Shown in pieces: positions 13,893 through 20,307 of a DNA stretch of 64,000 nucleotides. Numbering within the stretch: the stretch's first letter is position 1; every line of letters starts with the position of its first letter. Both the position numbers and the translations under genes were made by a program. Under the pieces are notes generated by a model, which saw only the letters and a list, made by a program, of their open reading frames with translations, was not told where the DNA came from and ran no database searches. The DNA is from an uncultured Paracoccaceae bacterium. GTDB lineage: Bacteria > Pseudomonadota > Alphaproteobacteria > Rhodobacterales > Rhodobacteraceae. The stretch covers positions 1 through 64,000 of the forward strand of contig CANKVU010000020.1 in assembly GCA_947487205.1 (NCBI GenBank), in the 5' to 3' direction.

Positions 13893-13906
13893 TTGACATG
13901 GATCAA
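13893..13906. promoter_or_regulatory. FNR box shared by hemN and fnrL
   Basis: TTGACATGGATCAA matches the FNR/FnrL consensus TTGAT-N4-ATCAA at nine of ten half-site bases. It lies 36 bases from each of the two divergent starts (hemN at 13857, fnrL at 13942), so FnrL probably controls both genes, including its own. Confidence 0.8.
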
Positions 13907-14694: not shown

Positions 14695-14713
14695 GGCGGT
14701 CCCCGCGCGCCGT

Positions 14714-14727
14714 TTGATCCAGGTCAA
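14714..14727. promoter_or_regulatory. FNR box upstream of ccoN
   Basis: TTGATCCAGGTCAA closely matches the FnrL consensus (TTGAT-N4-ATCAA, one change) and lies 55 bases upstream of the ccoN ATG, suitable for activation of the ccoNOQP operon. The same 14 bases recur upstream of ccoG. Confidence 0.85.
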
Positions 14728-14782
14728 AGCTCCGCCGATCTGAACATGCGATCCGGCCCCGGAAGGAAGACGGGGACGGGAC

Positions 14783-16393
14783 ATGCTCGACATTTTCAAA
14801 CTGATCGCCTTGGCGGTCGTTGCGCTCGTCGCGGCCATCGCGGCGAACTGGGCGCGTGACGCGGCCTACCTGGTCCACGCATTGCTTGTCATGGGGCTCG
14901 GGGCTGGCCTGTTCCTGTGGCAGCTGCGCACGATGCCGATCCCGGGCGAGCCCGTGCCGTCGCGCCTCGCGCCCAGCGGTTACATGGACGGACCGATCCG
15001 CTACGGCGTGATCGCGACCTCGTTCTGGGGGGTGGTCGGATTGCTGGCGGGCACGTTCATCGCCTTCCAGCTGGCCTTTCCGGCGCTCAATTTCGACTGG
15101 GGACAGCCGTTCACGAATTTCGGGCGGCTGCGGCCGTTGCATACCTCGGCAGTGATCTTCGCCTTCGGGGGCAACGCGCTGATCGCGACCTCGTTCTACA
15201 TCGTCCAGCGCACCTGCGGCGCGCGGCTGTGGGGCGGCAACGCGGCGTGGTTCGTGTTCTGGGGTTACAACCTGTTCATCGTGATGGCGGCGACCGGGTA
15301 CTTGCTGGGAGCAACGCAGTCCAAGGAATACGCCGAGCCGGAGTGGTACGTGGACATCTGGCTTACCGTCGTCTGGCTCGTCTATCTGGCGGTCTTTCTT
15401 GGCACCATCCTCAACCGGCGCGAACGGCACATCTACGTCGCCAACTGGTTCCTGCTGAGCTTCATCGTCACCGTGGCGATGCTGCATGTCGTCAACAACA
15501 TCTCGATCCCGGTCTCGATCTGGGGCTCGAAGAGCGTGCAGGTCTTCGCGGGCGTGCAGGACGCAATGACCCAGTGGTGGTACGGCCACAACGCCGTGGG
15601 CTTCTTCCTGACGGCCGGGTTCCTGGGCATGATGTATTATTTCGTGCCGAAGCAGGCCGGGCGACCCATCTACAGCTACAAGCTGTCGATCATCCACTTC
15701 TGGGCGCTGATCTTTCTCTACATCTGGGCGGGTCCGCACCACCTTCACTACACGGCGCTGCCGGACTGGGCCGCGACGCTGGGCATGGTGTTCTCGGTGA
15801 TCCTCTGGATGCCCAGCTGGGGCGGCATGATCAACGGCCTGATGACGCTGCAAGGCGCCTGGGACAAGATCCGCACCGACCCGATCATCCGCATGTTCGT
15901 GGCAAGCCTCGCCTTCTACGGCATGTCGACCTTCGAAGGTCCGATGATGTCGATCCGCGCGGTCAACAGCCTCAGCCACTACACCGACTGGACCATAGGG
16001 CACGTTCATAGCGGCGCGCTGGGCTGGAACGGTCTCATCACGTTCGGTTGCCTCTATTTCCTCGTGCCGCGGCTCTGGGGACGCGAGCGGATGCACTCCA
16101 TGGCGGCGATCAACACGCATTTCTGGCTCGCGACCGTCGGCATCGTTCTCTACGCGGCCTCGATGTGGGTCTCGGGGATCATGGAGGGGCTCATGTGGCG
16201 CGAGGTCGATCAGAACGGCTTCCTCGTCAACAGTTTCGCCGACACCGTCGATGCCAAGTTTCCAATGTACGTCGTGCGCGCGCTGGGCGGCGTGCTCTAC
16301 CTCGCCGGCGCGCTCGTCATGTCCTGGAACATCTGGATGACGATCCGAGCCCCCCAAGCCCGTGCCGTCACCGTCGCCACCCCCGCGGAGTGA
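14783..16393 (+). CDS. ccoN: cbb3-type cytochrome c oxidase subunit I
   Basis: The 536-residue catalytic subunit of the high-affinity cbb3 oxidase. It reduces O2 to water and pumps protons in the inner membrane. About 13–14 membrane helices are apparent. Haem/CuB ligand motifs include [10 protein letters not shown] (low-spin haem His), [13 protein letters not shown] (CuB/Tyr region), GPHHLHYT and [14 protein letters not shown] (haem His pair). Length is normal for the family, including an extra N-terminal hydrophobic segment ([20 protein letters not shown]) common in alphaproteobacteria. It is the first gene of ccoNOQP, directly preceded by an FNR box and a strong GGAAGGAAG ribosome site. Four bases separate its stop from ccoO. 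Confidence 0.95.
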
Positions 16394-16397
16394 AGTC

Positions 16398-17234
16398 ATG
16401 AGCAAGGATCCCAAGGACCCGAATTACCGCCCGTCCGACGATCCGAAGGTCGTCACCCCGAACGAGGCCCGGGCGACCGGCGAGCTGCCGAACGAATTGC
16501 CGCACCACGCGAAGACGATCACCTTCCACCAGCGGCTGGAGCGTAACGCGACGCTTCTGCTCGCGGCGTCCTTCGCGGTCGTCACGGTGGGCGGAATCGT
16601 CGAGATCGCGCCGCTGTTCTGGCTGGAGAACACGATCGAGGAAGTGGAGGGGATGCGCCCCTATTCCCCGCTCGAGCTGGCCGGGCGCGACATCTACGTG
16701 CGCGAGGGCTGCTATACCTGCCACAGTCAGATGATCCGGCCGATGCGCGACGAAACGGAGCGCTACGGCCATTACAGCCTGGCGGCGGAGTCAATGTACG
16801 ACCACCCGTTCCAGTGGGGCTCTAAGCGCACGGGCCCCGATCTCGCGCGCGTAGGGGGCCGATACTCGGACGAGTGGCACGTCGATCACTTGATGGACCC
16901 ACAATCGGTCGTGCCGGAAAGCGTGATGCCGAAATACGCCTTCCTTGCCGACGCGCGGATCGGAACCGCAGGCGTGGACGACCTGCTGGCCACCCATCGC
17001 TTCGTCGGCGTGCCCTACACCGATGAGATGATCGACGAGGCCCGCGCCGACATGCGCGCGCAGGTCGATCCGATGGGCGATGCCGACGGTCTGCTGGAGC
17101 GCTACCCCGGTGCCCAGGTTCGCAATTTCGACGGCTTGGCCGAACTGACCGAGATGGATGCGCTGATCGCATATCTGCAGATGCTCGGCACGCTCGTCGA
17201 TTTCTCCACCTTTTCACCTGACGACAGCCGCTGA
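16398..17234 (+). CDS. ccoO: cbb3-type cytochrome c oxidase subunit II (monohaem cytochrome c)
   Basis: A membrane-anchored mono-haem c subunit of 278 residues. It has a cytoplasmic N-terminal tail of about 45 residues, one membrane helix (about 52–72), and a periplasmic domain with the single haem motif CYTCH and a methionine-rich ligand region (SVMPKYAF). It passes electrons from CcoP to the CcoN active site. The ATG at 16398 is chosen four bases after the ccoN stop; an in-frame ATG at 16362 would intrude into ccoN. The ccoQ start follows after an 8-base gap. No defects are seen. Confidence 0.94.
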
Positions 17235-17242
17235 GAGGGCTC

Positions 17243-17422
17243 ATGGATACCTATTCCTTCCTGCGCGAACTCGCCGACAGCTGGGTTCTCCTGATCCTGA
17301 CCTTGATCTTCCTCGGCGTCATCGGCTGGGCATTTCGCCCGGGCTCGCGCCTGATCCATGACGATGCCGCCGCGGTGCCGTTCCGCCACGACCGGCCGGC
17401 GGAGGAGCGCGACGATGACTGA
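17243..17422 (+). CDS. ccoQ: cbb3 oxidase small subunit CcoQ
   Basis: A 59-residue protein with one membrane helix (VLLILTLIFLGVIGWAF, about residues 15–31), followed by the FRPGSR motif usual for CcoQ and an acidic/basic C-terminal tail. In other bacteria CcoQ stabilises the cbb3 complex, mainly the CcoNO–CcoP contact, especially when oxygen rises. It lies between ccoO and ccoP in the typical order. Its last eight bases overlap the start of a second small reading frame (ATGACTGA). Confidence 0.9.
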   Translation: MDTYSFLRELADSWVLLILTLIFLGVIGWAFRPGSRLIHDDAAAVPFRHDRPAEERDDD

Positions 17423-17597
17423 CCTTTCCGTATCGGCGCGGTCGGACGATGTCCCCCGAACGGCTCTTCAGGCGACGAGCGACCTGTCCGGCGGACAGGC
17501 CGCTCCCGAACCCAGGACAGCAGGCTGCGCCAACGCCTGTCCCGGCTGCAACTGTGTTTCCATTCCCGACTTCGTAAGGAGCGACCGCAATGGCTGA
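17415..17597 (+). CDS. Small Cys-rich protein coupled between ccoQ and ccoP (unrecognised)
   Basis: A 60-residue frame fills the unusually long ccoQ–ccoP gap. It overlaps ccoQ by 8 bp (ATGACTGA) and ccoP by 8 bp (ATGGCTGA), and a strong GGAGGAG ribosome site lies about 8 bases before the ATG. Residues 1–35 are polar and probably disordered. The end carries CANACPGCNC, four Cys and an Asn in ten residues, which could bind copper, zinc or an iron–sulfur cluster. There is no signal peptide or membrane helix. Placement and coupling suggest a role in oxidase assembly or metal supply, but that is inference. It could instead be a chance frame acting as a spacer. Confidence 0.5.
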   Translation: MTDLSVSARSDDVPRTALQATSDLSGGQAAPEPRTAGCANACPGCNCVSIPDFVRSDRNG

Positions 17598-18585
17598 CGC
17601 ACCCAAGATCGACGAGGTCACCGGTACCGAAACCACCGGGCACAGTTGGGACGGAATCGAAGAGCTAAACACGCCCCTGCCGCGATGGTGGCTCTGGACC
17701 TTCTATGCGACGGTCGTGTGGGGGATCATCTATATGATCCTCTTCCCCGCCTGGCCGCTCGTCTCGGGCGCGACGACGGGACTGCTGGGATTTTCGACTC
17801 GCGGAGAGGTCGCGGCCGAGATCGAGCGCGTCGAACTCTCGAATGCCGAGCTGACACGAAGCCTGACCACCGTCGACCTTGCCGCTCTCCCGGCCAACGA
17901 AGATCTGCATCGCTTTGCCGTGCAGGCGGGCCGGTCGATCTTCGCCGCCAATTGCTCGCAATGCCACGGCGCGGGGGCGGCGGGCGTGGTCGCTTCTGGC
18001 TATCCGAACCTGCTCGACGACGATTGGCTCTGGGGCGGTACGCTGGAGGAGATCGCCTATACCGTGCGCCACGGCATCCGGAACGAAGACCTGGACTCAC
18101 GCTATTCGGAGATGCCGCCCTTCGACTGGATGGAGGACGAGGAGCTCGACCAGGTCGCGCACCATGTCCGCAGTCTGTCGGGGCTGGACCACGATGCCGC
18201 GGCCGCCGATCAGGGCGCGGCGCTGTTTGTCGACAATTGCAGCTCGTGCCACGGCGAAAACGGCTTGGGCAATCGCGACCTCGGCGCACCGAACCTCGCC
18301 GACGCGATCTGGCTGAGGGGCGGCACGCACGAGGCGATCCTGCGGCAGCTCAATGCACCCCGGCACGGGGTGATGCCGCCATGGGGCGAGCGGCTGGGCG
18401 AGGCCGAGGTGCGCGCGGTCTCGGCCTATGTCCACGGCCTGGGCGGTGGCGAGGCCCAGATCGCCGATCCCGCGACCGACAAGGGGGCCGAAGACGCGGC
18501 CGCCGTGCCCGATGCAACCTATCCGGCCCGAGCCGGGGAAACGCCGGAGGAGGCGGGCGCAGACGACGTCGCGCCCACGGAATAG
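17590..18585 (+). CDS. ccoP: cbb3-type cytochrome c oxidase subunit III (dihaem cytochrome c)
   Basis: A 331-residue membrane-anchored dihaem cytochrome. The cytoplasmic N-terminus starts PKIDEVTGTETTGHSWDGIEELNTP, a classic CcoP opening containing the polar GHxWDGIEE signature. One membrane helix follows (about 36–58), then two cytochrome c domains with CSQCH (about 122) and CSSCH (about 219), and an Ala/Glu/Asp-rich tail. It takes electrons from soluble or membrane cytochromes and passes them to CcoO. The AAGGAG ribosome site lies inside the preceding small Cys-rich frame. The tail after about residue 290 is longer and more acidic than usual and is probably disordered. It is the last gene of the structural operon. 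Confidence 0.95.
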   Translation: MADAPKIDEVTGTETTGHSWDGIEELNTPLPRWWLWTFYATVVWGIIYMILFPAWPLVSGATTGLLGFSTRGEVAAEIERVELSNAELTRSLTTVDLAALPANEDLHRFAVQAGRSIFAANCSQCHGAGAAGVVASGYPNLLDDDWLWGGTLEEIAYTVRHGIRNEDLDSRYSEMPPFDWMEDEELDQVAHHVRSLSGLDHDAAAADQGAALFVDNCSSCHGENGLGNRDLGAPNLADAIWLRGGTHEAILRQLNAPRHGVMPPWGERLGEAEVRAVSAYVHGLGGGEAQIADPATDKGAEDAAAVPDATYPARAGETPEEAGADDVAPTE

Positions 18586-18619
18586 TCCCCTCGGAAGCGG
18601 CCGTTCGGGGCGCACGCGA

Positions 18620-18633
18620 TTGATCCAGGTCAA
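18620..18633. promoter_or_regulatory. FNR box upstream of ccoG
   Basis: TTGATCCAGGTCAA is identical to the box upstream of ccoN and lies 60 bases before the ccoG ATG. This points to a second FnrL-activated promoter for the assembly operon ccoGHIS. Confidence 0.85.
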
Positions 18634-18693
18634 CGCGCGCGCCCATCACTCTTCGCTACCCCTCTCATCGTGACAACAGGATCGAGTCCCGAC

Positions 18694-20307
18694 ATGGCCA
18701 GTGATGCGCCACCTCTCTTCGCCGCTCGCCAGCCGATCTTTCCGCGACGGGTCTCCGGGACCTTCCGGCGTCTGAAATGGGCGATCCTCATCGTGACGCT
18801 CGGTATCTACTACATCACGCCCTGGATCCGCTGGGACCGCGGCCCGAACCTGCCCGATCAGGCGGTGCTGGTGGACCTCGCGAACCGGCGCTTCCACTTC
18901 TTCTGGATCGAGATCTGGCCGCACGAATTCTACTTCGTCGCCGGCCTGCTCATCATGGCGGGGCTTGGCCTGTTCCTGTTCACCTCGGCGCTGGGAAGGG
19001 TCTGGTGCGGCTATTCCTGCCCGCAGACAGTCTGGACCGACCTGTTCCTGACGGTCGAGCGCTGGATCGAGGGCGACCGCAACGCCCGCATCCGCCTGCA
19101 CAACGCGCCCTGGACGGCGCGGAAGTGGCGGCTGCGGATGACGAAATGGGCGGTCTGGCTGCTGATCTCGGTCGCGACCGGCGGGGCGTGGGTCTTCTAC
19201 TTCGCCGATGCGCCCACGCTGTTGCGCGACCTGGTGACGGCGCAGGCCGCGCCTGTCGCCTACCTGACGATCGCGATCCTGACGGCGACGACCTTCACTC
19301 TCGGCGGCCTTCTGCGCGAACAGGTTTGCATCTACATGTGCCCCTGGCCGCGCATCCAGGCGGCCATGATGGACCCCGGCACCCTGACCGTGGGCTACCG
19401 AGAGTGGCGCGGCGAGCCGCGGGGCAAGGGCGGAATACGGCGGCGGAAAGTCGCCGCCGAGGCCATCGGCGGCGGCGAGGCCGCCGCCCGCTACGGCGCC
19501 GCCTTGGACAAGGACAGCGCCGCGCCGCGGACGTCGCACAGCGGGGACGCGCTTGGCGATTGCATCGACTGCCATGCCTGCGTCGCCGTCTGTCCCATGG
19601 GCATCGATATCCGCGAGGGCCAGCAGATGGAATGCATCACCTGCGCGCTGTGCATCGACGCCTGCGACGAGGTCATGGCCAAGATCGGCCGTCCGCGCGG
19701 CCTGATCGACTATCTCGCCCTCGACGACCGCCCGCCGACCCAGCCGGGCGAGGTGGCGGATGTCGCGGCCTTCTCGGGGACACCGGCCGGCCATGTCTCG
19801 GGCGCCGAGCGGCCGGTCTGGGCGCCGAAGCCGGTCTGGCGCCACATCTTCCGCCCGCGGACGATTCTCTACACGGTCGCCTGGTCCGCCATCGGCGTCT
19901 TCCTCGTGGTCGCGTTGTTCGTCCGGCCCGACATCGACATGACCGTGGCCCCCGTGCGCAACCCGACCTTCGTGACGCTTTCGGACGGCTCGGTGCGCAA
20001 CGCCTACGACGTCCGCCTGCGCAACAAGCATGACGAGGCGCGGCCCTTCCTCCTGTCGCTGAGCGCGGACGAGGAACTCTCGGTCGAGGTGCAGGGCGCA
20101 GCGGACACGGTCGTCGAGGTGCCGGCCGATTCCACCAGGCGCGAGCGTGTCTACGTCATCGCGGCACCGCCAGACGCAGCCGCAGGCCGCGAGCGAACCG
20201 AGATCCGTCTCTGGGTCGAGGACGGCGTGTCGGGCGAACGTTCGTTCGAGGACACGATTTTCAATGGCAGGGAGAGCTTCGATGAGCGCAGCGGCTCAGC
20301 GGGCTGA
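18694..20307 (+). CDS. ccoG: CcoG/RdxA polyferredoxin, Cu(II) reductase for cbb3 assembly
   Basis: An inner-membrane protein of 537 residues with about five helices and two ferredoxin-type cluster sites: CIDCHACVAVCP (about 290) and CITCALCIDAC (about 314). It also has the membrane Cys motifs CGYSCPQTVW and CIYMCPWPR. In related bacteria CcoG reduces Cu(II) to Cu(I) for delivery to the CuB site. A C-terminal immunoglobulin-like domain (about 420–537) follows the last helix. The ATG at 18694 is preferred over a GTG at 18670. The 3' end overlaps ccoH by 26 bp. Length is slightly greater than usual because of a charged insert (RGKGGIRRRKVAAEAIGGGE) before the first cluster. Confidence 0.94.
   Translation: MASDAPPLFAARQPIFPRRVSGTFRRLKWAILIVTLGIYYITPWIRWDRGPNLPDQAVLVDLANRRFHFFWIEIWPHEFYFVAGLLIMAGLGLFLFTSALGRVWCGYSCPQTVWTDLFLTVERWIEGDRNARIRLHNAPWTARKWRLRMTKWAVWLLISVATGGAWVFYFADAPTLLRDLVTAQAAPVAYLTIAILTATTFTLGGLLREQVCIYMCPWPRIQAAMMDPGTLTVGYREWRGEPRGKGGIRRRKVAAEAIGGGEAAARYGAALDKDSAAPRTSHSGDALGDCIDCHACVAVCPMGIDIREGQQMECITCALCIDACDEVMAKIGRPRGLIDYLALDDRPPTQPGEVADVAAFSGTPAGHVSGAERPVWAPKPVWRHIFRPRTILYTVAWSAIGVFLVVALFVRPDIDMTVAPVRNPTFVTLSDGSVRNAYDVRLRNKHDEARPFLLSLSADEELSVEVQGAADTVVEVPADSTRRERVYVIAAPPDAAAGRERTEIRLWVEDGVSGERSFEDTIFNGRESFDERSGSAG

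Follow-up and report, generated by a model that had tools for sequence, protein, structure and literature searches.

The assembly of cbb3-type cytochrome oxidases requires a cytosolic copper pool, together with the cupric reductase CcoG and the exporter CcoI (PMC7558416, available text). The small subunit CcoQ, or FixQ (PF05545), is described as having no cofactor in the available part of one account (PMC5742617), and the available parts of three accounts (PMC7876108, PMC8267372 and PMC5742617) make no mention of a cysteine-bearing tail. No description of such a tail was found in the open literature, which covers few subscription journals, and within that literature the cysteine tail of CcoQ appears to be undescribed. 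Small extra proteins, CcoM and CcoX/Y/Z, are found with the cbb3 oxidase or encoded near it (PMC8267372, available text). Small frames with a cysteine-pair motif just ahead of another gene are also known: CutF of Rhodobacter capsulatus, for which that gene encodes a copper enzyme, and CruR of Bordetella pertussis. About 45 residues lie between the cysteine motif of CutF and CruR and a C-terminal proline-containing motif (PMC9973294 and PMC9426467, available portions).

We analysed a 64,000-nucleotide stretch of DNA (the window) in which a frame of 60 codons (hereafter ORF X, or X) lies between ccoQ and ccoP. X is homologous to the cysteine-bearing CcoQ tail of related Rhodobacteraceae and occupies the same place in the operon, just before ccoP, but it differs from CcoQ in having no match to the FixQ domain (PF05545), no hydrophobic segment of the length that a membrane helix requires (judged by eye) and the status of a separate gene in the lineage of the window; the tail itself lies outside the Pfam model. 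X resembles CutF and CruR in being a small frame with a cysteine motif just ahead of another gene, but has no DUF2946 match, no signal peptide visible by eye and no proline-rich C-terminus, very probably originates from CcoQ, and has 13 residues between its cysteine motif and its end, versus about 45 in the available descriptions. It is distinguished from CcoM and CcoX/Y/Z as a CcoQ fragment without a membrane helix, on the basis of the descriptions available for these proteins rather than of a sequence comparison. The first three cysteines of X have the CX3CX2C spacing of the radical-SAM cluster site, a resemblance limited to the motif; X matches no enzyme domain.

Organisation and intrinsic signals of the locus

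The oxidase genes lie on the plus strand. ccoN (14783–16393, 536 aa), recognised by eye from the position and sequence of its ORF rather than by a library scan, is followed by ccoO (16398–17234; PF02433 and TIGR00781, scanned without its first seven codons), ccoQ (17243–17422, 59 aa; PF05545, E = 2e-18) and ccoP (17590–18585; TIGR00782, E = 4e-105). The ccoQ gene encodes the FixQ core only, without the cysteine tail of its relatives. ORF X (17415–17597, plus strand; MTDLSVSARSDDVPRTALQATSDLSGGQAAPEPRTAGCANACPGCNCVSIPDFVRSDRNG) runs from an ATG to a TGA over 60 codons and, exactly as the preliminary description had it, shares eight bases with ccoQ (ATGACTGA, 17415–17422, combining the ccoQ stop and the X start in a geometry suited to reinitiation) and eight with ccoP (ATGGCTGA, 17590–17597, combining the X stop and the ccoP start). 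The strong ribosome site reported there was also recovered: a Shine-Dalgarno-like GGAGGAG (17401–17407) lies inside ccoQ, 7 nt 5' of the ATG of X, and its pairing with the 16S tail (−10.0 kcal/mol) is equalled or beaten by 4% of the 837 plus-strand ATGs of the window. A second such site, AAGGAG (17576–17581), lies within the last codons of X and would serve ccoP. The motif CANACPGCNC, or C-x3-C-x2-C-x-C (17526–17555, residues 38–47), had been placed at the end of the frame; it is near the end, but 13 residues separate its last cysteine from the stop.

The codon usage of X (−0.19 bits per codon) ranks at the 1st percentile among 177 windows of 60 codons taken from real genes; when those windows are read in the two shifted frames, X scores above 81% and 92% of them. 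Codon usage alone gives no support for X as a gene, and the intrinsic evidence is mixed. X is nevertheless placed above chance by the presence of its motif in relatives and by protein-level constraint relative to Palleronia aestuarii, both described below, and the frame reported earlier as real, coupled and cysteine-rich is probably translated. X has no match in Pfam (E up to 1), NCBIfam or PHROGs, and none to the HMA domain (PF00403) typical of the copper chaperone CopZ. A search of PDB sequences returned a zinc domain of E6AP at E 0.3–0.9 only, which was taken as chance, and an AlphaFold model based on a two-sequence alignment had no confident fold (mean pLDDT 58). At the nucleotide level, nothing was found in Rfam at the gathering threshold over 14700–18700, and 16300–18800 showed neither a terminator nor a sigma-70 promoter.

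Three FNR/FixK-type boxes, all perfect, were identified in the window, versus 0.03 expected. They lie upstream of ccoN (TTGATCCAGGTCAA, 14714–14727, plus strand), between a divergent gene pair (13893–13906; FnrL-like and HemN-like by eye) and before the gene that follows ccoP (18620–18633). That gene is by its place ccoG-like, a putative assignment made from its position and from the annotated order on related plasmids; the boxes before ccoN and before this gene are identical 14-mers. The box 5' of ccoN presumably confers low-oxygen induction, and the operon, hence X, is probably induced at low oxygen. The genome of the window has two further ccoP genes (G000:C31:17168-17308 and G000:C11:38569-38709), and the CcoQ at these two loci is of another type, without the cysteine motif.

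The cysteine tail of CcoQ in the genus and the family

A search of 60 related genomes with X as the query yielded one clear match, in P. aestuarii DSM 22009 (57% identity); the weaker matches spanned the cysteine region only. In the genus, ccoP and its upstream region were fetched from the genomes with a ccoP match, 12 of the 14 searched, that of the window included; no ccoP match was obtained for G006 and G009 in this fetch. In seven of the 12 (G003, G004, G007, G008, G011, G012 and G013), CcoQ carries the motif as its C-terminal tail, and one frame encodes both. In two, the window and P. aestuarii, ccoQ stops sooner and the tail has a frame and a ribosome site of its own; in three, the motif is absent (G001 and G005, with an operon of the same type as that of the window, and G002, with only an operon of another type). 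The CcoQ of the closest fused relative, G004, ends in AVPFRHDDRPAPGCANACPDCRCGASDFLKGADHG, whereas that of the window stops after AVPFRHDRPAEERDDD and is followed by a separate frame ending in GCANACPGCNCVSIPDFVRSDRNG. X has the features of the CcoQ tails of its relatives, C-x3-C-x2-C-x-C followed by 5–14 residues just before ccoP, and is very probably the detached C-terminal tail of CcoQ. Judged by this homology, it is not a newly inserted gene, and it is a variant of the CcoQ subunit rather than a new family. The proposal of an additional, unrecognised protein in an otherwise normal ccoQ–ccoP order is not supported, since in close relatives the motif belongs to the C-terminal end of CcoQ and is read in its frame. 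For the refuting condition set in the preliminary description, a frameshift in the gap or absence of the motif in close relatives, the suggested comparison of the ccoQ–ccoP gap gave a mixed picture: seven of the 12 genomes of the genus have the motif but in the ccoQ frame, P. aestuarii has the separate frame, and G001 and G005 lack the motif despite having the same type of operon.

For the family, a search detected ccoP in 177 of 198 genomes; besides that of the window, 149 were examined (30 loci returned and 119 fetched) and 27 were left out. The survey comprised 244 rows: 164 loci (15 from the genus and 149 from other genera of the family, each represented by one genome) and 80 named loci, the best 80 of 561 relatives. 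Removal of 12 identical rows left 232. Cysteine-bearing tails were selected by cysteine count (at least three) and not by pattern, so that their spacing is informative, unlike that in an alignment of 20 rows picked for the motif, in which invariant cysteines are no evidence. Such tails were found in eight of the 149 other genera examined, the other 141 having fewer cysteines, and in 12 of the 80 named loci (the best 80 of 561), with examples in Shimia ponticola, Tranquillimonas rosea, Palleronia sediminis, Paracoccus sediminilitoris, a Loktanella and a Halocynthiibacter. After dereplication they accounted for 26 of the 232 rows. CX3CX2C, which arises in 1.2% of random cysteine placements, was present in 24 of these 26 tails and CX3CX2CXC in 21, with 5–14 residues between the last cysteine and the stop. 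One tail (L057, CDGSCKDCPSKS) retains only the three cysteines of CX3CX2C. The two exceptions, L109 (CSGGGCKDGCCKDDGATL) and L249 from Sedimentimonas flavescens (CQGGGCQGGRCHDDGATL), are glycine-rich with another spacing, and may perhaps represent an independent metal-binding tail.

On a FastTree phylogeny of the 232 rows (165 columns), in which branch order is rough, the presence of the tail changes at least 20 times, and tailed and tailless relatives lie close together, as for Paracoccus sediminilitoris and Paracoccus sp. JM45. The fixed spacing makes repeated loss, or transfer, seem likelier than repeated invention; the tree counts do not discriminate between them. With fewer than three cysteines in 141 of the 149 genera, the motif is dispensable for the cbb3 oxidase in general. 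A class-wide profile search covered 240 genomes, of which 85 had a CcoQ match (three of them in the family of the window). The nine out-of-family matches ending at model position 60 or beyond were read, the others being judged by their match coordinates. None of the nine has the motif in the CcoQ frame (eight CcoQ frames without tail cysteines and one region with no recognised CcoQ frame); two out-of-frame matches to the motif in these regions are chance.

Some other features of the surveyed loci were recorded. A plasmid of Sulfitobacter sp. CB2047 (L280, NZ_CP072614.1) carries a ccoNOQP-ccoG cluster, and over 51 residues the core of its CcoQ shares 88% identity with that of G004, a congener of the window; two copies of such Sulfitobacter plasmid clusters were read, both without a cysteine tail. 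Plasmids may thus carry this oxidase operon from one roseobacter to another. In Paracoccus ferrooxidans (L282, CP038202.1), the annotated ccoP start lies 173 nt past ccoQ and the frame is open from the ccoQ stop, so that the annotation seems to omit a long N-terminal extension of CcoP; the CcoP of L074 has a similar extension.

The conserved cysteine spacing makes the metal binding suggested in the preliminary description plausible, and X is probably a metal-binding peptide. The C-terminus of CcoQ is cytosolic, according to published topology and the positive-inside rule, and a cytosolic cluster of four cysteines suggests Cu(I), an Fe–S cluster or zinc. At this site Cu(I) would be likelier than Fe–S or zinc, and we put it first because assembly of the cbb3 oxidase needs a cytosolic copper pool with CcoG and CcoI; that X binds Cu(I) specifically is possible, at somewhat less than an even chance. 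A role of the tail as a replacement for a CopZ-type chaperone was tested and not supported: among the matches listed, stand-alone HMA frames (open frames of up to 125 aa, counted by eye) were present in at least 6 of the 17 genomes in which the tail is fused or split off and in at least 9 of the 21 without a tail, with no association.

The ligand of X and of the CcoQ tail may instead be an oxygen-labile [4Fe-4S] cluster, a fair alternative to copper that could report oxygen or redox state. The predominance of CX3CX2C among the tails selected by cysteine count, and its retention as the only three cysteines of L057, are in keeping with such a cluster, to which a cytosolic location would also be suited. 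However, a fourth cysteine is kept at CXC spacing in 21 of the 26 tails, no confident fold is predicted around the motif, and the known requirement of the cbb3 oxidase is for cytosolic copper (PMC7558416, available text). We consider an Fe–S cluster rather unlikely.

Probable fission of ccoQ and constraint on the released tail

CX3CX2C was found in the CcoQ frame in 25 of the 244 rows, and after the ccoQ stop only in the window and in P. aestuarii (two loci for the latter); four other out-of-frame matches lie within the ccoQ core and apparently occur by chance. The tree pairs the window with P. aestuarii as its sister (local support 97), and fused G004 is the next nearest row to both. Both split species have kept the start codon, the ribosome site and the two 8-base overlaps, that between ccoQ and X being ATGAGTGA in P. 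aestuarii. The overlap with ccoP is not specific to the split, the same offset of eight bases being found in nine fused ccoQ genes (G004, L150, L169, L178, L187, L196, L199, L206 and L212). A sequencing error is very unlikely to account for a split that two separate genomes share, and an origin of X by gene fission is well supported by these comparisons. With X as the query against 394 genomes of the family, no further split was detected: besides the window, there were two weak matches, both without C-x3-C-x2-C-x-C.

The codon-level comparison called for in the preliminary description favoured a constrained motif. Between the window and P. aestuarii, dN and dS were 0.06 and 0.38 for ccoP, 0.05 and 0.42 for ccoQ, and 0.04 and 0.34 for the X motif, versus 0.63 and 0.47 for the linker of X (codons 4–35, 17424–17519), which is unconstrained and in frame. 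Nonsynonymous changes numbered 1 in about 26 sites in the motif and about 26 in 60 in the linker (Fisher P = 1.3e-4); nonsynonymous versus synonymous changes within the motif were not significant alone (Fisher P = 0.11), the test being limited to 11 motif codons in a single pair of species. The only gap in the linker is 12 nt long, so the frame of X is kept. The linker has no other copy in the genome of the window above chance (best other match, E 0.27), and no direct repeats were found at the junctions. A 14-nt inverted repeat (93%, 1 nt between the arms) is present in the linker at 17477–17505; it was dismissed as a conserved element, being broken by the gap in P. aestuarii.

These values bear on the possibility that X is a decaying remnant, the CcoQ tail having been lost by frameshift and the downstream frame being open by chance. 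The weak codon bias of X, the neutral evolution of its linker and the absence of the motif from most of the surveyed lineages would all be expected of such a remnant, but at a dS of about 0.4 in ccoP and ccoQ the motif has accumulated a single nonsynonymous change, and start, ribosome site and frame are all intact. Decay is disfavoured because the motif has been constrained after the split, and we regard it as improbable.

A translational copper sensor of the CutF/CruR kind, in which metal bound to the nascent cysteine motif would alter the behaviour of the ribosome and hence the output of ccoP, is highly improbable. X is indeed a short frame with a cysteine motif, the gene to which it is coupled belongs to a copper enzyme, and loss of the membrane anchor would be no obstacle, but X has no DUF2946 match (no Pfam and no NCBIfam family), its end is not rich in proline and no signal peptide was recognised by eye. 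Its last cysteine, like that of the 26 tails, is so near the stop that the motif would not yet have left the ribosome tunnel when translation terminates. Nor does the RNA of the four stretches folded (the X/ccoP junction of the window and of P. aestuarii, the matching stretch of G004 and the ccoQ/X junction of the window) fold any better than shuffled sequences, with z scores of −0.70, 0.14, −0.35 and −0.28. Programmed +1 frameshifting at the end of ccoQ, joining CcoQ to X and restoring the ancestral full-length tail, is equally hard to credit: X is in the +1 frame relative to ccoQ and its frame is open 5' of the ATG inside ccoQ in both species, but neither has a +1-slippery run in the shared stretch (by eye), the codon before the ccoQ stop differs (GAC and GAG), and in both the stop coincides with an ATG that has retained a good ribosome site, an arrangement suited to reinitiation.

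Proposed role of the split-off tail

The reading that we favour, and hold to be moderately probable as a whole, is that a CcoQ tail was cut off by fission, stayed coupled to the operon and is still selected, with a soft-metal site. The fission would have taken place in the common ancestor of the window genome and P. aestuarii, when the unconstrained linker of a ccoQ that was still fused underwent a change that shifted the frame, leaving a CcoQ that ends after the FixQ core. Where ccoQ now stops, a ribosome site would allow the same ribosome to restart on X and then on ccoP and, to judge by the overlap geometry, termination–reinitiation at both junctions would cause X to be made alongside CcoQ and CcoP. 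The C-x3-C-x2-C-x-C motif, apparently still kept by selection in the species pair compared, would hold one soft metal ion in the cytosol, with Cu(I) as the first choice, and this ion may be buffered, or passed on, close to the route by which copper reaches the oxidase through CcoG and CcoI. As selection persists after release from the membrane, the freed tail apparently works in trans or by rejoining the complex.

In a more general form, put forward tentatively, CcoQ proteins scattered among Rhodobacteraceae would carry an undescribed cytosolic CX3CX2CXC metal site which, in the lineage of the window, fission has turned into a free, oxidase-coupled metallopeptide, either a Cu(I) shuttle dedicated to the cbb3 oxidase or an oxygen-labile Fe–S reporter. 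The cytosolic route of copper to this oxidase has not been fully worked out. A four-cysteine CcoQ tail that has been kept or lost among close relatives, and once freed from the membrane, would provide a natural experiment on copper need and oxygen response. X also illustrates how a small "new" gene may arise by fission of a subunit and not from scratch.
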